DNA of 64,000 nucleotides from Nonlabens sp. YIK11 (GTDB lineage Bacteria > Bacteroidota > Bacteroidia > Flavobacteriales > Flavobacteriaceae). Positions 52,054 through 63,590 of this stretch are shown one piece after another; position 1 is the stretch's first letter, and every line of letters starts with the position of its first letter. Where the stretch lies: contig NZ_LBMJ01000001.1 of the NCBI RefSeq assembly GCF_001413925.1, forward strand, positions 558,001-622,000, in the 5' to 3' direction. The translations under genes and the position numbers were made by a program. The notes below the pieces were generated by a model. The model saw only the letters and a program-made list of their open reading frames with translations. It was not told the origin of the DNA and searched no databases.

Positions 52054-52914
52054 ATGGAAAAACCTAAAAAGAAATACAAAGGCAAGTGGCGCAATCATTA
52101 TAGGCTTGTGGTGCTTAATGACGATACCTTTGAAGAGCGTTTTAGCCTTAAGCTTACCAGGCTTAATGTATTCACGGTAACTTTAGTAAGCGCCGTTTTG
52201 CTAGTAGGGCTTACCACCTTTTTTATTGCATTTACACCTATCCGTGAATTTATTCCAGGTTATTCCAGCAGTGAGGTGCGCAATGAAACCACCGCTCTGC
52301 TTAGAGAAACAGACTCCCTTAAAGCAAAGCTGGCCTTGAATGAGCAGCAATACAGCCGTATAAAAATGGTGTTGAGTGGTGATATCACCAGCGAGGAATA
52401 TGCTCGCATTGACAGCATTGCACAGGTGGAAACTACCATATCCTTATCAGATTTTGCACCTAGCAAAGAGGATAGCCTGCTACGGGAAGAAGTCGCTCGC
52501 GAGGATAAATACAACCTGATTGAAGGCGCAAAAGCCAGAACCAACTTTGTCTTTTTTAATCCATTAAAGGGTAAGATTTCAAACGGTTACAACCCAAAAG
52601 AAAAACATTACGGTGTTGACGTCACCGCAGCGGTCAATACACCTATCAAGGCCGCAGCAGCTGGAACGGTCATCTTCTCAGGCTGGAGCGCAGAAACCGG
52701 TTACACCATTTTGCTGGAGCATTCCTATGGACTGCTCACCGTCTATAAACATTGCGGTACTCTTACTAAAAGCCAAAACGATAAAGTCCTGGCCGGTGAG
52801 GTCATTGCCAGTGTGGGCAATACCGGCGAACTCACAAATGGTCCGCATCTACATTTTGAGCTTTGGAGTGATGGCTATGCGCTGGATCCCATCAACTTTA
52901 TAAATTTCGAGTAA
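52054..52914 (+). CDS. M23 family metallopeptidase
   Basis: A 286-residue inner-membrane-anchored peptidoglycan endopeptidase-like protein. A basic start and a helix at about 37-58 are followed by a coiled-coil region (TTALLRETDSLKAKLALNEQQYSRIKM). The lysostaphin-type domain spans about 170-286: HYGVDVTAAVNTPIKAAAAGTVIFSGW supplies the first His and Asp ligands, and GPHLHFELW the HxH. The sites look intact, so it may be active and not just an activator. The stop overlaps the GH3 ATG (TAATG). Confidence 0.93.
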   Translation: MEKPKKKYKGKWRNHYRLVVLNDDTFEERFSLKLTRLNVFTVTLVSAVLLVGLTTFFIAFTPIREFIPGYSSSEVRNETTALLRETDSLKAKLALNEQQYSRIKMVLSGDITSEEYARIDSIAQVETTISLSDFAPSKEDSLLREEVAREDKYNLIEGAKARTNFVFFNPLKGKISNGYNPKEKHYGVDVTAAVNTPIKAAAAGTVIFSGWSAETGYTILLEHSYGLLTVYKHCGTLTKSQNDKVLAGEVIASVGNTGELTNGPHLHFELWSDGYALDPINFINFE

Positions 52915-54419
52915 TGTCCATTAAGTCCATTGCAGCAAAGGTTTTTGCGGCTACTGTCCACAAAAAAACCCAAAAATGGGCGAGCAACCCAGTCAAATCA
53001 CAGCAAAAGGTTTTTCATGATTTGCTCAAAATGGCTGGAGATACCGCTTTCGCGAAAGCGCACTCTTTCTCCAACATAAAAACACATCAAGACTTCATTA
53101 ATCAAGTACCCATACGCGATTATGAGCAGCTGAAGCCCTTTGTCGATCGAGTAGTGGCCGGAGAAGAAGACGTTTTATGGCCGGGCAAGCCACTCTATTT
53201 TGCTAAAACTTCTGGAACTACCAGCGGTGCCAAATACATACCGCTGACCAAGGAATCCATGCCAGAGCACATAAAGGCCGCTCGCAATGCGATCTTGAGT
53301 TACATTCATGAGACTGGCAACTCGAGGTTTGTGGATGGAAAAATGATCTTTCTTCAAGGCAGCCCAGAACTTGAAGAAAAAAACGGAATACAACTGGGAC
53401 GCTTAAGCGGTATCGTCGCTCATTTTGTACCAGATTACCTGCAACGCAATCGCATGCCCAGCTGGGAAACTAACTGCATTGAGGACTGGGAAACAAAGGT
53501 TGAGGCCGTGATTGACGAGACCTTAAGGGAAAACATGACGGTAATCTCTGGAATTCCCAGCTGGTTGCAAATGTATTTTGAACGTATCGTGGCGAGAACC
53601 GGTAAGAAAGTAGGCGAGGTTTTCCCAAATCTAGAATTATTGATTTATGGTGGCGTCAACTTTGAGCCCTATAAAGCAAAATTTGATTCTCTAATAGGAC
53701 GACCTATAAATAGTATCGAGCTCTTCCCAGCCAGCGAAGGGTTTTTTGCCTATCAGGACGAACAAACCGAAAAAGGAATGCTCCTACTGCTGGATGCGGG
53801 AATTTTCTACGAGTTCATCCCAGCAGATCAATTCCACGACGAGAACCCACTAAGGTTAACAATTGGTGAAGTAGAAATTGGTGTCAATTATGTGATGATC
53901 ATATCAACTACCGCAGGCTTATGGGCGTATGATCTAGGTGACACCATAGCTTTTACTTCAACAGATCCGTATCGGGTAGTGGTAACAGGAAGAATCAAGC
54001 ATTACATTAGTGCCAGCGGTGAGCATGTGATAGGGAAAGAGGTAGAAGAAGCGATGAAAGCTGCTATATCACATACAAACTTAGTCGTTAATGAATTTAC
54101 GGTAGCACCACAACTGGATCCACCAGCTGGTGAGCTGCCATTTCACGAGTGGTTTGTCGAGATGGACACCGCACCAGATAAAGCACAACTTAAAGCATTT
54201 GCCGCCCAGCTAGACCGCGAAATGCGTGAGCAAAACAGTTATTACGACGACCTTATTAAAGGAAAAGTGCTACAACCGCTACAGATTCAAGTACTCAAAA
54301 CAGGTGCTTTCAAGGAGTATATGAAAAGCATCGGCAAATTAGGCGGTCAAAACAAACTGCCGAGACTATCCAACGATAGGAAGATTGCTGGATTGCTAAC
54401 AGGAAAAGTAATTAATTAA
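52914..54419 (+). CDS. GH3-like acyl-adenylating enzyme
   Basis: A 501-residue cytoplasmic protein of the GH3 family (ANL-type adenylate-forming enzymes known from plant auxin conjugation). Motifs: ATP-binding FAKTSGTTSGAKYIPLT (about 94-110), LELLIYGGVNFEPYKAKF, ELFPASEGFFAYQD, YDLGDTIAFTSTDPYRVVVTGRIKHYISASGEHVIGKEVEEAM. Bacterial substrates are unknown. An exact palindrome encodes AFAKA at residues 45-49 (GDTAFAKAHSF), where GH3 proteins usually have a TAFG-like helix. Coupled to the M23 gene. Confidence 0.92.
   Translation: MSIKSIAAKVFAATVHKKTQKWASNPVKSQQKVFHDLLKMAGDTAFAKAHSFSNIKTHQDFINQVPIRDYEQLKPFVDRVVAGEEDVLWPGKPLYFAKTSGTTSGAKYIPLTKESMPEHIKAARNAILSYIHETGNSRFVDGKMIFLQGSPELEEKNGIQLGRLSGIVAHFVPDYLQRNRMPSWETNCIEDWETKVEAVIDETLRENMTVISGIPSWLQMYFERIVARTGKKVGEVFPNLELLIYGGVNFEPYKAKFDSLIGRPINSIELFPASEGFFAYQDEQTEKGMLLLLDAGIFYEFIPADQFHDENPLRLTIGEVEIGVNYVMIISTTAGLWAYDLGDTIAFTSTDPYRVVVTGRIKHYISASGEHVIGKEVEEAMKAAISHTNLVVNEFTVAPQLDPPAGELPFHEWFVEMDTAPDKAQLKAFAAQLDREMREQNSYYDDLIKGKVLQPLQIQVLKTGAFKEYMKSIGKLGGQNKLPRLSNDRKIAGLLTGKVIN
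53045..53060. repeat. 16-bp palindrome copy 14 (in GH3-like gene)
   Basis: Read as AFAKA in the N-terminal TAFxxxHxF helix typical of the family. Confidence 0.97.
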
Positions 54420-54739
54420 CGATAAGTTTTCCGCATTCCATGTTGAATTTAAATGGGTATTTTAACATTGCCTATTATAGTTTACGCTCAGTAGGAATTT
54501 TATATTCATTACTATTTGAAATGTTTAGATAGAGCCTGCATTATTTGAATGTTGAGAAATTATCAATCCCTGAAGAATAGGATTAATTAGAACATTTACT
54601 TCCTATAGGAAATGTTTTGAATTGATGTCAATTCTTAATGTTTAGTTTCAATAATGACGGAATTTAAATAAAAGCATTAATACTGGCACTCTAGACACTA
54701 TTTTTGAATTCATGTTTTCGCAGGATTAAAAATTTCAAA
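54420..54739. other. AT-rich intergenic segment with a possible promoter
   Basis: About 320 bp without a credible gene. A -7 match TATTTTTG lies at 54699-54706, about 34 bp before the ATG at 54740. No repeat or hairpin of note. Confidence 0.5.
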
Positions 54740-57688
54740 ATGCTATATTTTCAAATTATTTTATTGGTCATATTGTTTGTAAGCTTGTTAACTATTTTAA
54801 AGAACAAGATGTTTAAGTCGATAGGTGCACTCTTAGGTGGAATTTTTATATCACTTCAAGTAGTTTCGATCTATCTTACTAATAACATAGGCGATTATAA
54901 ATTTTACGAGCACTTCAAATGGAGTGTTGTTTCAAATATCTACCAAGAATTTCTTCCAGAGTTCCTATTGGCTGTTTGTTTTTTAGTGATTATTACATTT
55001 ATATTATACTGGTTATCAAGTATTTTATCAAAATTGTCCAGTAAGATTAGTGTGCCTACATCGATCATTTGTACAATTCTTTTGAGTCTTAACTCTCATG
55101 TTTTCTATAATTTGTATGAAACCATTTCTTTAAAAAGTGGCAACTCATATACCTTAACAAAAGCAATTAGTAAACTTCCTTTACAAAAAGCGGAATTGTT
55201 GACTAACCGAGATGTTAGTGCTTCTGCTGGGAGAAACATCATTTTTTTGTCACTGGAATCTTTTGAAAAAGGATTTATTAATGAGCGGCCTGATTTAACG
55301 CCTCACCTCAATCAGCTCAAGAAGGAATATCATTATTATGACCTGCTCCCTTCATCTGGTGGAGGTTGGACTAGCGCATCGGCATACATGGCCTTGACAG
55401 GAATGCCGGCTTATTTTGGAAATAAGTACAATGATATATTTCAAGGAAGCAATAAAATACAGATTAATAACATAGGTAACGTGCTTGAAACAGCGGGTTA
55501 TGATATGCAGTATCTAATTGCGAACAAGGACTTTTCTGGTATGAAGGATATGTTAGAGACGCTAGGTTTTAATGTCAAATCAGAGGATGATTTTGAAACT
55601 AAATATGAAAAAATTCCCTGGGGAATACATGACAAAGATTTATTTGATGAAATAGAAAAAGAAGCTATTGCTCTAAGTGAGAAAGAACGACCATTTGCTC
55701 TGTTTGCCAGTACTATTTCAACTCACTACCCTGATGGTATCTATGACAGCCGAATGGAAAGTTTGATAGCACCAAAAAACTCAGAATTAGAGTTCATGGT
55801 AGCTGCTGTTGATTATTACATTGGCAATTTATTCTCCACATTGAAAGAAAAGAACCTTCTTGAAAATACAACTGTAATTATTGTTCCTGATCATCAATTT
55901 ATGGGTAAACATAAGGTGATTGATGATTTAGAAGACAGGGGTTTATTTGTTCTATCAACTACTCCTATTGATGAAATGGAAACAAAAAACCTGTCGCAGG
56001 TATCTATGCCCAACATAGTTTTGGATGTGGCAGATATTGAAACGGACGCTGTTTTTCTTGACGATTTGATTCAAGGAAATAAAAACCAATTCGTATACAA
56101 TTATAAAAAAGAACTCAGGGATGTCAATATCGCATCACTCAACACTATCACTATGAAAGATGGCTTTAATGTTGTGCGTATGGACTCCTTAATTTCTGTG
56201 GCATACAAAAATGATTCAAATCTCATTTTTGCACAAACAGATTTAACCAAAGCTTCTAAAAAACTTTTCCAAATTAATGTTGATAGATACTTCAGATATT
56301 ATAGCTCTAGGCATATACCTATAGCAGATATAAAGACTGCCGTTAAAAAGCCAAATACCATAAACATCATTTATGTTAATGATACCATACACACTTATTA
56401 TAGTGATCAAGATGGATTGGTTTCTTTTAAAAAGGATGCAAATAGGGTAGTTTTTGAAAACACTGAGTTGATTCCTAAGTTTCAATTTTTACAACCTTCT
56501 TCCAATGAAGAAGAATTAGACAAAAAACTTCAATTTCTTGTTATACGTAGCTCTGGTTTCAACTCCAAGGAAACAAGTTACTATCAATACGGTGGTAACA
56601 CATATCGATTTTCACGTGGAGTTAATGTAATTTCAATTAATTCTAAGGGTAGTTATACTCTGGAAAACTTTGACACCTATGCAAATTATGAAGCTAGAAA
56701 TGAACTTTTGACTTACTTGAAACAAATAAAAAAATCAAAATTTCGAAGTTTTATTATTGTTCATGATACTGCAGGAGAGGTTTTTGGAGAATTTGAACAA
56801 GAACTTAATGCGATAGGACTTTTTAAATTAATTGATATTAAAAATCGCCAGGCTTACATAGCTTCCTATGAACAAGGTGGTTTCTTAGAATATTTGGATG
56901 ACTTTACAATAGAAAAAAAATATGCGGTACCTAATTTAAAGCTAGAAGCAAAAAGAAATACTGATGATGAAATCACAACTTATAGTAAACAAGTAGATAG
57001 GTTCATAGCACATGCTGGAGGTAAAATTGATGGTAAGGTTTACACAAATTCTTTAGAGGCCCTAAATAAGAGCTATCAAGCAGGATTTCGCTTATTTGAG
57101 CTTGACATAATCAAAACTAGCGATGGGCATTTTGTGGCTGCTCATGATTGGGACACTTGGAAGAGGCTATCTAATTATTCAGGGGAGACACCAGTTACCC
57201 TTAAGATTTTTAACTCACAAAAACTCTTTGGTGAGTATACACCGCTTGATATGACAGCTATAAATAGTTGGTTTGAAACTCATAAGGATGCAATACTTGT
57301 TACCGACAAAACCAGGGAAATAAAGAGGTTTAGTACAGAATTCTTAGACAAGAGCAGGTTGATAATGGAAGTGTTCAATGTTGAGGATGCAGAACTCGCA
57401 TCAGTTTATAGGGTGGAACCTATTCTATCAGAGAGCATTATTGCCAGCATGAATTTAAATTTAGTCCCGTTTATGAAGGACAGGGATTTTAAGTATATTA
57501 CTTTCTCAAGGAATTCAATTTCAAAATTTAAGGGTGTTTTGAAAATGGCTAAGGAAAACGGTATTAAATCCTATGTTTACCACGTCAACTTTCAAGGAGG
57601 AAAGGACGAAAAATATGTGGTAGAATATGAACTAGGTCAGGTTTACGGACTTTATGCAGATGAGTGGGATTTTAAAACTCCAGAATAA
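54740..57688 (+). CDS. OpgB-like phosphoglycerol transferase fused to ILEI and GDPD-like domains
   Basis: A 982-residue protein from ATG 54740; a TTG at 54704 overlaps the -7 element and is less likely. Four membrane helices (1-20, 24-45, 75-98, 107-128) precede a sulfatase-fold domain (about 165-460) like E. coli OpgB: Glu173 in FLSLESF, Thr211 in GGGWTSAS (presumed nucleophile), His329 in THYPDG, Asp384-His385 in VPDHQF. Residues about 596-712 resemble the ILEI/FAM3 fold (GVNVISINSKGSYTLENFDTY). About 754-982 resemble a glycerophosphodiester phosphodiesterase (His758 in FIAHAGG, Glu787 and Asp789, His802 in AAHDWD), but the usual Arg after the first His is missing. A DAG kinase gene follows with zero spacing. 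Glycerophosphate transfer to a glycan is inferred. Confidence 0.8.
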   Translation: MLYFQIILLVILFVSLLTILKNKMFKSIGALLGGIFISLQVVSIYLTNNIGDYKFYEHFKWSVVSNIYQEFLPEFLLAVCFLVIITFILYWLSSILSKLSSKISVPTSIICTILLSLNSHVFYNLYETISLKSGNSYTLTKAISKLPLQKAELLTNRDVSASAGRNIIFLSLESFEKGFINERPDLTPHLNQLKKEYHYYDLLPSSGGGWTSASAYMALTGMPAYFGNKYNDIFQGSNKIQINNIGNVLETAGYDMQYLIANKDFSGMKDMLETLGFNVKSEDDFETKYEKIPWGIHDKDLFDEIEKEAIALSEKERPFALFASTISTHYPDGIYDSRMESLIAPKNSELEFMVAAVDYYIGNLFSTLKEKNLLENTTVIIVPDHQFMGKHKVIDDLEDRGLFVLSTTPIDEMETKNLSQVSMPNIVLDVADIETDAVFLDDLIQGNKNQFVYNYKKELRDVNIASLNTITMKDGFNVVRMDSLISVAYKNDSNLIFAQTDLTKASKKLFQINVDRYFRYYSSRHIPIADIKTAVKKPNTINIIYVNDTIHTYYSDQDGLVSFKKDANRVVFENTELIPKFQFLQPSSNEEELDKKLQFLVIRSSGFNSKETSYYQYGGNTYRFSRGVNVISINSKGSYTLENFDTYANYEARNELLTYLKQIKKSKFRSFIIVHDTAGEVFGEFEQELNAIGLFKLIDIKNRQAYIASYEQGGFLEYLDDFTIEKKYAVPNLKLEAKRNTDDEITTYSKQVDRFIAHAGGKIDGKVYTNSLEALNKSYQAGFRLFELDIIKTSDGHFVAAHDWDTWKRLSNYSGETPVTLKIFNSQKLFGEYTPLDMTAINSWFETHKDAILVTDKTREIKRFSTEFLDKSRLIMEVFNVEDAELASVYRVEPILSESIIASMNLNLVPFMKDRDFKYITFSRNSISKFKGVLKMAKENGIKSYVYHVNFQGGKDEKYVVEYELGQVYGLYADEWDFKTPE

Positions 57689-58525
57689 GTGACTAGAATA
57701 GCGTTTTTAGTGAATCCCATATCTGGAAGACAAGAAAACGTCCTAACCATAGAAGAGGTAAAATCTATTTTTAGCGAACAGGATTTTGAAATCCAGCTAC
57801 AATATTCTTCTTCAAAAGAAAATCTTGAATATTTAACCCAGAGCTGTATTCAAAATAAGGTGGAAATTATTGTAGCTTGTGGTGGAGACGGTACCATAAA
57901 TACAATTGCAAATCATTTGATTGATTCATCCGTTTCCCTAGCTGTCCTACCTAGAGGCTCGGGTAATGGCTTAGCGACCCATTTAAATATTAAACATTCC
58001 TTACCTAGACTACATGAGAATATTTCAAAGTCGAAATACAAACTAATAGATTGTGGTTCAGTCAACGGTATTTATTTCTTTTCCAACTTTGCTTTAGGCT
58101 ATCCAGCAGATGTTATAGAAAGATACGACAAAGACAATAGTCGAGGCTTTATCACATATTTTAAACATAGTGTTTTGTCTTTTCTGTCCTTTCGCAGAAA
58201 AAAGATAGGTTTACTTGAACGTTTTACGAAGACCTACAGCGTTCTGATCTCAAACACTAAATACATGGGCTATGACTTATCGTTAACGCCAGGAGCCAAA
58301 TTAGATAGTGGTAAATTAGAGTTAGTGCATGCAAATTCACGTCTAGGGTTAATCAGAATCATGATTTCTACGTTATTACTAGGGAATAATCATGCACAGA
58401 CTATAGACAGTACTGTAATTGAAGTGCCTTATGGTTTTCCAGCTCAAATCGATGGAGAGCCTCTCCAGCTGCGGCCACCTTATGTTATTTCATCCCATGT
58501 TAGCAAGCTTAAAGTGATTGCCTAG
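57689..58525 (+). CDS. diacylglycerol kinase family lipid kinase
   Basis: A 278-residue cytoplasmic lipid kinase of the DagK/YegS type, starting at GTG 57689 right after the preceding stop. It begins MTRIAFLVNPISGR. The ATP-site GGDGTINTIANHL is at 65-77, and LAVLPRGSGNGLATHLNI follows; the second beta domain includes the GYPADVIERYDKD region and AQIDGEPLQL. It should phosphorylate diacylglycerol or a related lipid to phosphatidic acid. Coupling to an OpgB-like enzyme, which releases diacylglycerol from phosphatidylglycerol, makes a recycling role very plausible. Confidence 0.92.
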   Translation: MTRIAFLVNPISGRQENVLTIEEVKSIFSEQDFEIQLQYSSSKENLEYLTQSCIQNKVEIIVACGGDGTINTIANHLIDSSVSLAVLPRGSGNGLATHLNIKHSLPRLHENISKSKYKLIDCGSVNGIYFFSNFALGYPADVIERYDKDNSRGFITYFKHSVLSFLSFRRKKIGLLERFTKTYSVLISNTKYMGYDLSLTPGAKLDSGKLELVHANSRLGLIRIMISTLLLGNNHAQTIDSTVIEVPYGFPAQIDGEPLQLRPPYVISSHVSKLKVIA

Positions 58526-58550
58526 CTATTTTACTAGCATCGTATGATTC

Positions 58551-58582
58551 TTTCAAATAACACCGTTAGAATTCTATCTTTG
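58551..58582 (+). promoter_or_regulatory. promoter of the AMP-nucleosidase-like gene
   Basis: TATCTTTG at 58575-58582 with TTTC at 58551-58554, 20 bp spacer, 16 bp before the ATG. Confidence 0.55.
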
Positions 58583-58598
58583 TAAAGAAATTACATTT

Positions 58599-60329
58599 AT
58601 GCCCATTATTAACGTAGAACCCAGAACCAGAGCTCAAGAAAGCACCAATGCTATTGAACGTATGTACATTACCATGCGGCACTTATTCAACCGTGGTTTT
58701 TATAAGCCCATGGGCGTGAGCGGTGAGTCCTTGAGAGAATCTTTGCTGACGATACGACCAGAAATATATGGTTCTATTGCAGAGGACAAGATTGAGCTGA
58801 GCGGTTTATTATACGTTATGGATAGGCTACCCATGGGAATTGAAGAATGTACCTATATCAACCTAACCAGTGATGAAGGCTATAGCAGTTCGCATTTCAA
58901 GGCCATCATACCAAAAAAGCGCCGTCGCAACTGCTATCGCATTGATAAACACCAGATGAATATCGAGATCACTCGCGGTCGCTCAGAGATCTACGATATA
59001 CTGACACACCTTACCTTCTTGATGGTAGAATCCCACAAGATCATGAAGCGTGTGATTATCAACGACGACGGCAGTACCACAAGGGACTGGAAGTGCCTGG
59101 AAGATGCTGTAGCTAAAGATGAACTTACCCAAGAAGAGAAGGAAGTTGCGGTAATTCATACCGCAAACATTCTGGGAAGAACCTTTGATGAGGTCATGCA
59201 GGTGTACGGCTCCTTTGCCACGCCCCAGAACCCCAATCAGTTTTTGAGTACGATTTATTACCTAGGACTTTTGGGTAAACACGAGATCATGGATGAGCAA
59301 AAGCGCATTATTACATTCTCTCCTGTGTTGCGGGAGCGATTGGGACACCATATCCATGGTGATCGATGGGCCATGCGCATCAAGAAACATTTGATAGACA
59401 ACAATTTATTTGACCGTCCATTACACATCATCAGTGCAAATTTGCACTCGGTTATGAATTCTGTTTATGGACCTAAGGTACTTGCGGCACAGATAAGCAA
59501 AAAAGGGCGCATGGAGGTTTTTGCCTCGTTGAGTGAGGCCGCCGGTAAAAAGAACCGTGATGCCATTAAGAAATATGCCTTGCAAAATGGAATGCAGGAG
59601 CTTCAGGATCAAAGTGGGACCAACATTGATGTGCAGATTTTTGACACGGCAAAAACAACCTTTGAGCACGTAGGCTTTTGTGAAGATCGCTTTCGCGAAA
59701 GCGATAACAACCACAAGCCCGTTCTTATCGTTATGGACTACGCTTTTGGTGAGCAGGCCTATGAAACATTGGACGAATTGCTAAAGCCTTACAACGACGG
59801 TAGTAACCCTAGACACATGAATATCAAAAGCGTCAGTATCATGGGTAAGGCTGGAATACTTGAAGGCGAGAAAGGTGATATCATGGTGCCAGATGCCCAC
59901 GTATTTGAGGGAACGGCAGATAATTATCCGTTCAAAAACCGACTTTCCAAAAAGGATCTCGCCACTGAAGGACTTAACGTGGTTTCTGGTTCTATGGTCA
60001 CAGTTTTGGGTACATCATTACAAAACAAGGATGTGCTGGAGTATTTCTATAATTCAAGCTGGCGCGTGATAGGTCTTGAAATGGAAGGTGCACATTATCA
60101 AAAGGCCATTCAAGCAGCCTCTAAGGTGCGCCGTAGCATCTCCAAAAAGGTGCGAGTAAGATATGCGTACTATGCGAGTGATAATCCTTTAAAAACAGGC
60201 CATACGCTTGCTAGCGGCGGTTTGGGTCTAACCGGTGTCAAACCCGTTTATGTGATTACAGAAAAGATTCTGGAGCAGATCCTTAAGGAAAGCCTACCCA
60301 AAACGGAATCTGAAAAGGCAAGTCAATAA
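58599..60329 (+). CDS. AMP nucleosidase-like / nucleoside phosphorylase-fold protein
   Basis: A 576-residue cytoplasmic protein. The C-terminal third has the nucleoside-phosphorylase fold, with GKAGILEGEKGDIMVPDAHVFEGTADNYPF, VVSGSMVTVLGTS and VIGLEMEGAHYQKAIQ (the ExEG signature of phosphorylases and AMP nucleosidases). The N-terminal two thirds (RAQESTNAIERMYITMRHLFNRGFYKPMGVSGESLRESLL) match the Bacteroidota AMP-nucleosidase/DUF6909 type as I remember it. It probably releases adenine from AMP or acts on a related nucleotide. It carries the only exact palindrome copy in the RFRES frame (CEDRFRESDNN). Confidence 0.8.
   Translation: MPIINVEPRTRAQESTNAIERMYITMRHLFNRGFYKPMGVSGESLRESLLTIRPEIYGSIAEDKIELSGLLYVMDRLPMGIEECTYINLTSDEGYSSSHFKAIIPKKRRRNCYRIDKHQMNIEITRGRSEIYDILTHLTFLMVESHKIMKRVIINDDGSTTRDWKCLEDAVAKDELTQEEKEVAVIHTANILGRTFDEVMQVYGSFATPQNPNQFLSTIYYLGLLGKHEIMDEQKRIITFSPVLRERLGHHIHGDRWAMRIKKHLIDNNLFDRPLHIISANLHSVMNSVYGPKVLAAQISKKGRMEVFASLSEAAGKKNRDAIKKYALQNGMQELQDQSGTNIDVQIFDTAKTTFEHVGFCEDRFRESDNNHKPVLIVMDYAFGEQAYETLDELLKPYNDGSNPRHMNIKSVSIMGKAGILEGEKGDIMVPDAHVFEGTADNYPFKNRLSKKDLATEGLNVVSGSMVTVLGTSLQNKDVLEYFYNSSWRVIGLEMEGAHYQKAIQAASKVRRSISKKVRVRYAYYASDNPLKTGHTLASGGLGLTGVKPVYVITEKILEQILKESLPKTESEKASQ
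59688..59703. repeat. 16-bp palindrome copy 15 (in AMP-nucleosidase-like gene)
   Basis: Read as RFRES, the third possible frame of the palindrome and the only exact copy so read here. Confidence 0.97.
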
Positions 60330-60346
60330 AACGCGCCTAGTTACGT

Positions 60347-60354
60347 TATATTTG
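60347..60354 (+). promoter_or_regulatory. -7 promoter element of the polysaccharide cluster
   Basis: TATATTTG, 23 bp before the Wzz-like gene ATG. Confidence 0.45.
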
Positions 60355-60377
60355 GGTTTTCATTAACAAAAGTAGAT

Positions 60378-61415
60378 ATGAATCAAAACGACCCTCAAAA
60401 TAGAGAGGAGCAGGAAGTGGACCTGGTTCCTGTTTTTGTCTGGATAGGCGATGGAATTAAGGGATTTTTTAGAGCGATCGGGAATTTCTTTAAGGCGATA
60501 GGGCATGCATTTATTCTCTTCTTGATCTTTTTACAAAAGAACATCATTCTTATAGGCGCATTCGTTGTCTTGGGAATCGTTTTAGGTTATTATATGGAAT
60601 CTGCATCCAAGGGTAGCTATTCTGCACAATTGCGAGTGCAGCCTAATTTTAATAGTGCATCTCAACTTATATCAAATATTAATTATTATAGGGCTTTAGC
60701 ATCTGAAGAGGAACATGACCGCCTTGCCAAGGAATTGGGAATCACAACTCAAGAAGCAGAACAACTCAGTTCATTTGAGATAGAGCCTATATACAATGAT
60801 ACGGAGCTATTGGAAGAGTATGATCAACTTGCAAGATCTGCAGATACCATGGCACTGGACAATTTTACATTTGAAGGCTTTAAGGAAGCAAAACGAGAGT
60901 TTGATTATGAGTTTTATGAGATTGTTGCTAGAGCAGAAAGCAGGGCAATTTTGGAAAAGGTGGTCCCCAAAATTGTAGAGGTAAAAGAAAATTCTGGCAT
61001 TAAGGCAGCACGATTATCATTTCTAGAAAATACAGATTTTAATATTAGTTCAAAAAAAAACCAACTATCTGAAATAGACTCATTGATTACCTCCTATCAA
61101 AAGATGATTGCTACAAATCAGTCTTCAAGTGGTAACACGAACCTTTTCGTGGGAGACCAAAGATCTTCCGATAACTTGGCTAATTTATTTTACCTCAAAC
61201 AATCATTGTTGGAGGACCTTGAAGACTTGCGAGAAGATAAATATTCATCTGAAAACACAGTAAATATTGTATCGAAATATTCCGTTCAGGGAACGGTCAA
61301 AAAGGAATATACCTTGCTTAAATGGGCACTCATATTATTTGTCTTAGGTGTTCTTGTAGCTTTTATTCCAGTTCTTTGGAGGTTTTTAAAGTCATACTCG
61401 CAACAGGTATCTTAA
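60378..61415 (+). CDS. Wzz-like polysaccharide chain-length/co-polymerase protein
   Basis: A 345-residue inner-membrane protein with the Wzz layout: an amphipathic N-terminal part (about 20-45), a first helix (about 46-72, ending GIVLGYYMESASKG), a periplasmic coiled-coil-rich domain (about 75-305) with SYSAQLRVQPNFNSASQLISNINYYRAL, and a last helix (about 315-336) ending VAFIPVLWRFLKSY. No kinase domain. It should control chain length of a surface glycan made by the following genes. The rfbD start follows after 9 bp. Confidence 0.8.
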   Translation: MNQNDPQNREEQEVDLVPVFVWIGDGIKGFFRAIGNFFKAIGHAFILFLIFLQKNIILIGAFVVLGIVLGYYMESASKGSYSAQLRVQPNFNSASQLISNINYYRALASEEEHDRLAKELGITTQEAEQLSSFEIEPIYNDTELLEEYDQLARSADTMALDNFTFEGFKEAKREFDYEFYEIVARAESRAILEKVVPKIVEVKENSGIKAARLSFLENTDFNISSKKNQLSEIDSLITSYQKMIATNQSSSGNTNLFVGDQRSSDNLANLFYLKQSLLEDLEDLREDKYSSENTVNIVSKYSVQGTVKKEYTLLKWALILFVLGVLVAFIPVLWRFLKSYSQQVS

Positions 61416-61424
61416 AAGGCTCAT

Positions 61425-62273
61425 GTGAAAAAAGTAATGATTATAGGTGCCCGCGGTATGCTAGGCACGAGTATGGTTCATGGCTTAACGGGATGTGATC
61501 TTGTGGCCTTCAATCGATCAGAACTTGACATCACATGTTATTCAACAGTCAGACAAAAACTCTATCAATACAAGCCGGACTACATCATTAATTGTGCTGC
61601 TTACACCGCAGTAGATCAAGCGGAGGTTGAGCCTGAAACAGCTTATAAAATAAATGCAAGTGCGGTAGGAATGCTTGCTTCTATGGCAAAGCAGATCGAC
61701 GCCACACTCATTCATTTCTCGACAGACTATGTTTTCAATGGATCTTCAAAGACACCTTACAAGCCTGATGACCCTGTAAATCCCATCAATACTTATGGAC
61801 GCAGTAAATGGTTGGGAGAAAGAGCTATAGTGTCAAGTGGTGTCAAACATTACATTTTGAGAACTTCATGGCTGTATGCGCCGCACGGCAAAAATTTTTT
61901 CCGTTGGGTCATGGAGAACGACCAAGAAGAGATGAAGGTAGTGGATACCCAAGTGGGCTGTCCTACGAGCGCCATTGATGTGGCAGACTTTATACGGCAT
62001 TTAATAAATACAGATCCAGAAAGATACGGGACCTATTACTTTTGCAATAAAGGTAGTATGACATGGTACGCTTTCGCGAAAGCGATATCAGAAAAAGCTG
62101 GGTTGCAGAAGAAAATAAGTCGAGTAAAAACATTTCCAAGCCTTGCGGAGAGACCAGAATACAGCGTTTTGGATTGCAGTAATATATTGAGTGTTTTTGA
62201 TTATCAAATCTCTATACAGGAAGGAGCAATGAATAAGGTGCTGGATGCTTACAGAGAATTAATAGCTTCCTAA
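61425..62273 (+). CDS. rfbD: dTDP-4-dehydrorhamnose reductase
   Basis: Last enzyme of dTDP-L-rhamnose synthesis, 282 residues, GTG start at 61425. Short-chain-dehydrogenase features: MKKVMIIGARGMLGTSMVHGL (NADPH site), NCAAYTAVDQAEVEPETAYKIN, STDYVFNGSSKTPY, YGRSKWLGERAI (Tyr-x3-Lys), LRTSWLYAPHGKNFFRWV. The exact palindrome at 62069-62084 encodes AFAKA in GSMTWYAFAKAISEKAG, where family members have a W-Y-x-F-A-x-x-I helix. rfbA, rfbB and rfbC are not in the window and may lie elsewhere. Confidence 0.93.
   Translation: MKKVMIIGARGMLGTSMVHGLTGCDLVAFNRSELDITCYSTVRQKLYQYKPDYIINCAAYTAVDQAEVEPETAYKINASAVGMLASMAKQIDATLIHFSTDYVFNGSSKTPYKPDDPVNPINTYGRSKWLGERAIVSSGVKHYILRTSWLYAPHGKNFFRWVMENDQEEMKVVDTQVGCPTSAIDVADFIRHLINTDPERYGTYYFCNKGSMTWYAFAKAISEKAGLQKKISRVKTFPSLAERPEYSVLDCSNILSVFDYQISIQEGAMNKVLDAYRELIAS
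62069..62084. repeat. 16-bp palindrome copy 16 (in rfbD)
   Basis: Read as AFAKA at the position of the conserved W-Y-x-F-A helix. Confidence 0.97.
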
Positions 62274-62306: not shown

Positions 62307-63590
62307 ATGAAGAGGCATCTTAAAAGGCTTGATGATGAACAAAAAACGGTAGCAAAAAACTATAGCGCCTTGATGATACTACAGGGCTTAAACTATGTAT
62401 TGCCGTTTGTAATAATTCCATTTTTAGAGAGAACCCTCGAGTTAGAGCGATTTGGTCTTGTTATGCTCGCCCAATATCTAATGGCACTTTGCATCGCTGC
62501 AACAGATTTTGGGTTTAGTACTACCGCAGTTCGAGAAATATCAGTTCTCAAATCTAAACGCGAGGACTATTCTACGATATATTTCAAGGTGTTTTGGGCT
62601 CGTGCAATTCTGCTGGTATTGGTCTTTGCAGCTCTTTGTGTCTTTGTATTTACCATCCCTAGATTTGCTAAGGAATGGGAAGTTTATTTACTAAGCTATG
62701 GAATGGTTGTTGGCCAAACGATGCTGGGTGATTGGTTTTTTCAAGGTATAGAACGTATGCGAATTTTGACCGCTGTAAATGCTGTTTCTAAGATACTGTT
62801 CACCCTTCTACTGTTTTTGTTTATAAGTAGTCCATCAGACTATATATTAGTCCCAATTTTTAATTCTATTGGCTATCTATTTGCTGGTGTCATCATGTTC
62901 GGTCTAAGTTTTAGGTATGTTTCATGGCAATGGCCTAATTTTAGAAATACCAACGGTTTTTATCGCGACAGCTTTCAAATTTTCATTTCTGATCTTTCAT
63001 CTCAATTCACATATGCTGCAAATGGTGTTGTTTTAGGACTTTTTGCGGGTGATAGCGTCGTCGGGATTTTTAGTGCATTCGATAAATTAATACTGGCAGC
63101 ACGAAAAATGTATATACCTATTAGCCAGGCTTTTTACCCTTATTTATCTAGAAAGCCTTATCAAGAAAAGCGCAGCATGATGAAGAAACTAGCGCTAGGC
63201 ACTTTGACTATAGGTACAATTGGAATGCTTATATTGGTGTTCTTTGGATCTTTCATCTTAAACATTTTATACGCTGATCCTGCTATAGCTGCGAATGATT
63301 ATTTATTAAAGTGGATGGGAATCTCAGTATTATTTGTAGGGTTGAGTTTACTTTTCACAAATCTGTACGCGCCGGCAAGAAAACTTTTTCACCAGCGGCT
63401 TAAGATACTGACAAGTGCGACAGTCTTTAATCTTATATTAGGTTTTTTGCTGGTTCCCAAGTTAGGCTTAACAGGAACTATCGTTACAACTATCTTTACT
63501 GAGTTGTTGATGGTAATAATTGCAGCATATTATTATTGGGGTGATGCTTCATCGAATAGCGAGGAAAATCAACAATTGAATAAACGATAG
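62307..63590 (+). CDS. oligosaccharide flippase (Wzx/RfbX-like)
   Basis: A 427-residue membrane protein with about twelve helices, belonging to the polysaccharide-transport branch of the MOP superfamily. The N-terminus reads NYSALMILQGLNYVLPFVIIPFLERTLELERFGLVMLAQYLMAL, close to RfbX starts, then FGFSTTAVREISVLKSKREDYSTIYF and GDWFFQGIERMRILTAVNAVSKILFTLLLF. It should flip undecaprenyl-linked glycan units across the inner membrane. It sits between rfbD and a Wzy-like protein, typical of a Wzx/Wzy-dependent locus. Confidence 0.9.
   Translation: MKRHLKRLDDEQKTVAKNYSALMILQGLNYVLPFVIIPFLERTLELERFGLVMLAQYLMALCIAATDFGFSTTAVREISVLKSKREDYSTIYFKVFWARAILLVLVFAALCVFVFTIPRFAKEWEVYLLSYGMVVGQTMLGDWFFQGIERMRILTAVNAVSKILFTLLLFLFISSPSDYILVPIFNSIGYLFAGVIMFGLSFRYVSWQWPNFRNTNGFYRDSFQIFISDLSSQFTYAANGVVLGLFAGDSVVGIFSAFDKLILAARKMYIPISQAFYPYLSRKPYQEKRSMMKKLALGTLTIGTIGMLILVFFGSFILNILYADPAIAANDYLLKWMGISVLFVGLSLLFTNLYAPARKLFHQRLKILTSATVFNLILGFLLVPKLGLTGTIVTTIFTELLMVIIAAYYYWGDASSNSEENQQLNKR

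Follow-up and report, generated by a model that had tools for sequence, protein, structure and literature searches.

In a 64,000-nucleotide stretch of the flavobacterium Nonlabens sp. YIK11 (contig NZ_LBMJ01000001.1, positions 558,001 to 622,000 of the forward strand; hereafter the window), we found a gene whose single polypeptide joins a membrane anchor, a phosphoglycerol-transferase-like domain of the LtaS/OpgB type, an ILEI/FAM3 domain and a GDPD domain, and which is directly followed by a gene for a lipid kinase of the DAGK_cat family. On balance we lean towards reading the pair as a phosphoglycerol transferase, anchored in the membrane, that carries its own sugar-binding domain and phosphodiesterase, the kinase recycling diacylglycerol, and we build this reading on observed folds, conserved residues, gene linkage, co-occurrence across genomes and a cassette organization. 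Glycerophosphate decoration, first suggested by a first-pass annotation of the window, is a plausible reading, with a predicted chemistry, and is better supported than when it was proposed.

Pfam, structure comparison and residue conservation all confirmed the observation of a fusion with an adjoining kinase, and the structure check of the three domains returned the sulfatase-type, ILEI and GDPD folds. Although the mechanical open reading frame begins at a TTG (54704), we placed the start at the ATG because homologues align to it. The four-helix anchor described earlier is matched by about four membrane helices in the AlphaFold model (helices at residues 2-19, 23-47, 68-96, 101-115 and 121-132), with hydropathy giving three separate candidate segments. 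The first domain matches Pfam Sulfatase above cut-off (residues 165-386, E 7.8e-18) and has an alkaline-phosphatase fold whose closest solved structures are LtaS and LtaP, with VP1736; the OpgB family model NF009027 of NCBIfam matched in part (E 6.8e-23, 81 bits versus a cut-off of 572), and the OpgB equivalog NF003000 stayed below its cut-off (57 versus 574 bits). The Glu, Thr, His and Asp-His residues attributed to this domain are indeed present and align with LtaS and LtaP residues. Of 53 fusion rows, all have His329, Asp384 and His385, 52 have Glu173 (the other, a cut-off row, has a gap there), and 51 have Thr211, with a gap and a Ser in the other two. We take the catalytic, metal-binding and substrate-histidine roles of these positions to be those of LtaS, and by this analogy the domain would transfer glycerophosphate from phosphatidylglycerol.

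For the ILEI domain, Foldseek alone matched nothing at E <= 0.001, its 50 displayed rows being unrelated folds, and the fold call rests on a second structure comparison, which found the ILEI fold with a stem that binds N-acetylglucosamine (GlcNAc) as its nearest relative and so supports the ILEI reading. In the POMGnT1 stem, Arg129, Asp179 and Arg207 bind GlcNAc (PMC9802357, available portion), and it is onto these residues that Arg626, Asp676 and Arg703 of the fusion, kept in 37, 37 and 35 of 39 ILEI rows, fall by register and by FAM3A/TMEM2 alignments. By analogy, the domain probably has a sugar-binding fold of the GlcNAc type, with glycan binding predicted; for ILEI in bacteria, the literature matches listed held only unrelated papers.

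The GDPD domain was recovered by Pfam above cut-off (residues 769-852, E 1.7e-7) and has the TIM-barrel fold. Six positions (His758, Glu787, Asp789, His802, Lys857 and Glu877) are invariant in 75/75 rows, whereas the residue after His758 is Ala in 73 rows and Gly in 2, the Arg of the usual HRG occurring in none; another GDPD of the same genome has HRG. Judged by sequence, the site is intact though unusual. The description of HAGG as non-canonical holds insofar as Ala replaces the Arg of HRG, but the motif is not unique, as solved lysoplasmalogenase chains share it: in the PDB, the domain profile scores best against a lysoplasmalogenase that carries MAHAGG (E 0.003), presumed to be the Thermocrispum enzyme of PMC8016129, the available portion of which does not mention HAGG.

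The kinase matches DAGK_cat at 86.3 bits versus a cut-off of 23.6 (E 1.6e-24), and the zero spacing reported for it is exact, since its GTG at 57689 directly follows the fusion TAA. Running the proposed survey of gene neighbors, we found that the next downstream gene is a same-strand kinase at 7 of the 22 three-domain loci and at none of the 12 two-domain and 54 stand-alone loci (Fisher 2.7e-5, a value that treats related loci as independent, though they are not). The gap is 0-14 bases in five of the seven loci and 132 bases beside a broken fusion (G005), and the seven are split over two separate fusion clades, across which kinase identity is 32-34% (six of seven compared) as against 49-57% and 59-76% within clades. 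Among 23 Nonlabens genomes, the kinase occurs solely in G000, G005, G009 and G010 (49-51% identity to that of the window), which are exactly the genomes with a fusion match (Fisher 1.1e-4). The fusion copy of the window is the sole certainly intact one of these four: that of G005 is disrupted (G005:C1:1075902-1078709), that of G009 is reduced to remnants (G009:C1:951183-951690), and that of G010 is spread over two contigs, has an in-frame stop close to the edge of one of them, and cannot be called intact. Three further full-length fusion relatives are recorded as Nonlabens (P0004, P0006, P0008). Because DgkA-type kinases are present in 23/23 Nonlabens genomes and another DAGK_cat kinase above cut-off in four (G000, G004, G019, G020), the fusion-linked kinase is an extra one. 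Diacylglycerol would be its substrate by analogy; related bacterial lipid kinases act on ceramide or sphingoid bases (PMC10331486, available portion).

Table 1. Features of the fusion-kinase cassette, in window coordinates.
Feature	Positions	Strand	Remarks
Three-domain fusion protein	54740..57688	+	982 amino acids from ATG
N-terminal membrane anchor, about four helices, residues 1-132	54740..55135	+	AlphaFold and hydropathy
LtaS/OpgB-type phosphoglycerol-transferase-like domain, residues 146-470	55175..56149	+	Glu173, Thr211, His329, Asp384, His385
Beta-rich linker region, residues about 476-590	56165..56509	+	
ILEI/FAM3 domain, residues 597-732	56528..56935	+	Arg626, Asp676, Arg703
GDPD domain, residues 747-982	56978..57688	+	HAGG in place of HRG
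DAGK_cat-family lipid kinase	57689..58525	+	GTG start directly after fusion's TAA
Cassette: fusion and kinase	54420..58598		between GH3 (52914-54419) and DUF6909 (58599-60329)

To place the fusion among its relatives, we relied on a protein search (25 hits, the window's own protein included) and on an alignment of 22 of these hits together with the window's protein, which matched at E <= 1e-30 in 38 of 397 genomes of the family, fusion and stand-alone forms together. Scanning the named genomes with a single sequence as query found no relatives, while the alignment found 159, the best 80 of which, with 18 fetched stretches and the window and minus 10 stretches as duplicates, gave the layout counts. 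All three domains occur at 22 loci, that of the window among them; 12 loci have transferase and GDPD but lack the ILEI region; and 55 have a GDPD without a fused transferase. One of the 55, from a mussel symbiont (L086), is actually a split fusion, leaving 54 true stand-alone ILEI-GDPD genes; the linker is absent from the two-domain relatives.

A midpoint-rooted tree of the GDPD domain (45 of 89 sequences, taking every fifth of the 55 loci without a fused transferase) nests the stand-alone Flavobacteriaceae clade inside a group of three-domain fusions (support 100/99), a placement that suggests that these genes arose by a split rather than by late fusion. The tree also contains a cross-phylum clade (support 100/99) with records from Gammaproteobacteria, Campylobacterota, Myxococcota, a gill symbiont and one unplaced bacterium, in which binning errors are possible because most records are metagenome or symbiont assemblies. 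Outside Bacteroidota, the fusion was seen at L086:2491-5582, L040, L041, L044, L047 and L104 (mussel gill symbiont, Sulfurospirillum, Gammaproteobacteria, Myxococcota), which group together as a single clade with good support.

The stand-alone genes also keep company with a transferase-like enzyme: 41 of the 54 have, within four genes, a member of the protein cluster of L076:10464-12845. The single scanned member combines a Sulfatase match (E 9.2e-34) with TPR repeats and matches the solved glycerol phosphate lipoteichoic acid synthase 2 (E 7.4e-12) and VP1736 (E 1.1e-15), the other members being assigned by similarity cluster. YaiO is found in all 41 loci, a family-2 glycosyltransferase in 39 and a HEAT protein in 36. 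As for the other 13 genes, 12 lie between GH3/M23 and DUF6909, the slot of the window's cassette, in opposite orientation, and one (L055) is cut by the contig end beside YaiO. To judge from these neighbor counts, the ILEI-GDPD unit in its fused form, and in most cases also in its split form, accompanies a phosphoglycerol-transferase-like enzyme. L076:9148-16601 and 40 similar loci (Maribacter and kin) form an operon-like run of YaiO-TPR, LtaS-like-TPR, family-2 glycosyltransferase and HEAT genes, a conserved run that looks like an exopolysaccharide system.

G+C content is 33.6% in the cassette and averages 40.6% (standard deviation 1.8) over 120 overlapping windows of the same size, none of them lower. 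A DUF6909 match was present in 17 of 19 Nonlabens congeners without the module, and in 16 of these 17 GH3 adjoins it with 76 to 831 bases between aligned parts; in the remaining one (G017), the stretch yielded no GH3. The nearest relative (G004, DUF6909 99% identical) has an empty site with alignable ends on both sides. An Rfam scan of 54000-59000 gave no match, flanking repeats around the cassette were not convincing, and no mobile gene lies within it; on these results we rejected a mobile element around the cassette. What speaks for mobility is the empty site, together with the base composition and the patchy presence, and both gain by transfer and old presence with many losses are possible histories. 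A surface polysaccharide cluster had been placed just downstream: polysaccharide genes are close by (RmlD at 61425, flippase at 62307), but they begin two genes past the kinase, after DUF6909 (58599) and a gene without Pfam match (60378), and the module is an optional cassette at the border of that cluster, absent from most congeners and no fixed component of it. In several further genera, clusters of these two intervening genes (58599-61415, the second of 345 amino acids) are found again in this order. Elsewhere, G000:C1:1874227-1888999 carries seven sulfatase genes in a 15-kb run, possibly a locus for the use of sulfated polysaccharide.

Across the three-domain loci, sugar genes lie near 13 of 22 (some by cluster membership, with annotation of neighbors partial), including the three Nonlabens loci. 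The neighbors comprise a sugar-nucleotide enzyme, glycosyltransferases, MBOAT and Wzy (L032, L034, L037, L045, L046), a flippase and the UDP-GlcNAc 2-epimerase family (L033, L035), a UDP-glucose/GDP-mannose dehydrogenase (L040), SIS and glutamine amidotransferase domains as in glucosamine-6-phosphate synthase (L041) and a double glycosyltransferase (L044). OpgG (MdoG, PF04349) had 0 matches in the strain's own genome, the E. coli control being positive, and we rejected an E. coli-type osmoregulated periplasmic glucan as acceptor because of this absence.

In the mechanism that we propose, whose donor, acceptor, direction of GDPD reaction and kinase substrate we infer, the transferase domain would act in the periplasm. 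With Thr211 and a metal that Glu173, Asp384 and His385 coordinate (roles assigned from LtaS), it would take glycerophosphate from phosphatidylglycerol and attach it to a periplasmic glycan or to a surface glycan that is being built. The ILEI domain would grip that glycan, probably at a GlcNAc-like sugar, and the GDPD domain could act on the same bond type to remove, thin out or move glycerophosphate, such that one protein would set the decoration level, while leftover diacylglycerol would be phosphorylated by the neighboring kinase for re-use. More speculatively, and we hold this extension only tentatively, the one polypeptide may write and erase the same glycan mark as a rheostat of anionic charge, its lectin domain presenting a GlcNAc-containing glycan to both enzymes, and may spread among bacteria as a cassette that includes a dedicated diacylglycerol kinase.

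Several observations weigh against this mechanism. The alkaline-phosphatase fold is common to sulfatases and phosphoethanolamine transferases too. The ILEI/FAM3-like domain was found by structure comparison as the first-pass annotation had it, though its Pfam match (residues 626-708, E 1.2e-4) is below cut-off, at 22.9 versus 27 bits; among eight relatives scanned, ILEI exceeds the cut-off in two (L049, 34.6 bits; L076, 27.5), falls below it in one (L052, 25.0) and goes unlisted at E <= 1 in the other five, of which L034, L041 and L044 are three-domain fusions, and a precomputed ILEI label is carried by 1 of the 25 protein-search proteins (P0003). An adjoining DAGK_cat kinase is missing from 15 of 22 three-domain loci (3 without a downstream gene called), and at L037 the kinase is merely a frame of 124 amino acids, 224 bases away. 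Moreover, in G005 and G009 the kinase frame stays open despite the decayed fusion, which counts against an exclusive partnership, and the kinase may serve a separate purpose. Nor is the glycan link universal, the other 9 of 22 three-domain loci having non-sugar neighbors where examined: threonyl-tRNA synthetase (L036, L038, L039), MatE and NMO (L043, L146), PALP (L042), CotH (L053) and genes without Pfam match (L047, L057). Sugar genes lie near 3 of 12 two-domain loci (L048, L069, L150), the remaining ones examined having housekeeping or transport genes or no match.

Two alternatives seem to us equally unlikely. The first domain may polymerize glycerophosphate like LtaS onto a glycan or lipid anchor, with GDPD setting chain length, but a single transfer as by OpgB or LtaP fits equally, and our literature search found no paper on poly-glycerophosphate of this kind in Bacteroidota, where none is known to us either. 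Alternatively, protein and kinase may produce or modify a lipid with a phosphoglycerol head group, such as one built on ceramide, with the kinase acting on ceramide or sphingoid bases; the HAGG site in a solved lysoplasmalogenase fits this, as do the bacterial ceramide and dihydrosphingosine kinases in the wider kinase family and the phosphoglycerol dihydroceramide of Porphyromonas gingivalis (both PMC10331486, available portion), yet the ILEI domain, whose solved relatives include sugar binders, and the sugar-gene neighbors would go unexplained. Less probable again is that GDPD serves as a second transferase rather than a hydrolase, passing glycerophosphate between glycans or closing a cyclic phosphate: cyclic phosphates are products of the sphingomyelinase D enzymes, which belong to the same superfamily, the HRG arginine is missing in 75/75 rows, and E. 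coli phosphoglycerol transferase II moves phosphoglycerol between glucans (PMC3818809, available portion), but the conserved His and acidic positions look hydrolase-like. That the first domain is a phosphoethanolamine transferase or sulfatase-like hydrolase is very improbable, for although the fold is the same and the matches include MCR-1 and sulfatases, those to LtaS and LtaP have a clear lead in both sequence and structure, and Thr occupies the nucleophile position in 51/53 rows where sulfatases use Cys or Ser.

If our preferred reading of a glycan-decorating transferase is true, a writer and possible eraser in one chain, separated by a sugar-binding domain of animal type, would offer a direct handle on the tuning of surface charge, and the fusion would offer a bacterial setting for testing ILEI/FAM3 domain function. 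In the open-access literature, partly among the matches listed, we found no paper on glycerophosphate decoration in Bacteroidota and none on a transferase fused to GDPD.

Glycerophosphate decoration as such is already known for E. coli glucans and Gram-positive glycans. In E. coli, OpgB (MdoB) transfers the phosphoglycerol of phosphatidylglycerol onto glucans, and when arbutin drives the reaction in cells that lack the kinase, diacylglycerol becomes toxic (PMC3818809, available portion); OpgB with Dgk is alike in its membrane anchor, periplasmic transferase domain and diacylglycerol by-product that needs a kinase, and unlike in that the glucan enzyme OpgG is absent from the Nonlabens genome. 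GacH of Streptococcus pyogenes, which uses phosphatidylglycerol as donor to place glycerophosphate on the GlcNAc side chains of a surface glycan (PMC12282279, available portion), is matched by fold and differs in being Gram-positive. LtaS and LtaP are the nearest in structure, with VP1736, but make lipoteichoic acid. To our knowledge, OpgB, GacH, LtaS and LtaP all come without ILEI or GDPD. WhyD, a GlpQ-type wall teichoic acid hydrolase, similarly couples a membrane anchor to a phosphodiesterase domain on the outer side, which tailors a surface polymer (PMC9208761, available portion), yet it is a hydrolase only, with seven predicted helices; its likeness to the fusion was judged on layout and on the kind of phosphodiesterase fold. 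The POMGnT1 stem and FAM3 (ILEI) share the fold and, by register, the three GlcNAc-binding positions with the fusion, but they are animal proteins, whereas here ILEI is joined to bacterial phosphodiester enzymes.
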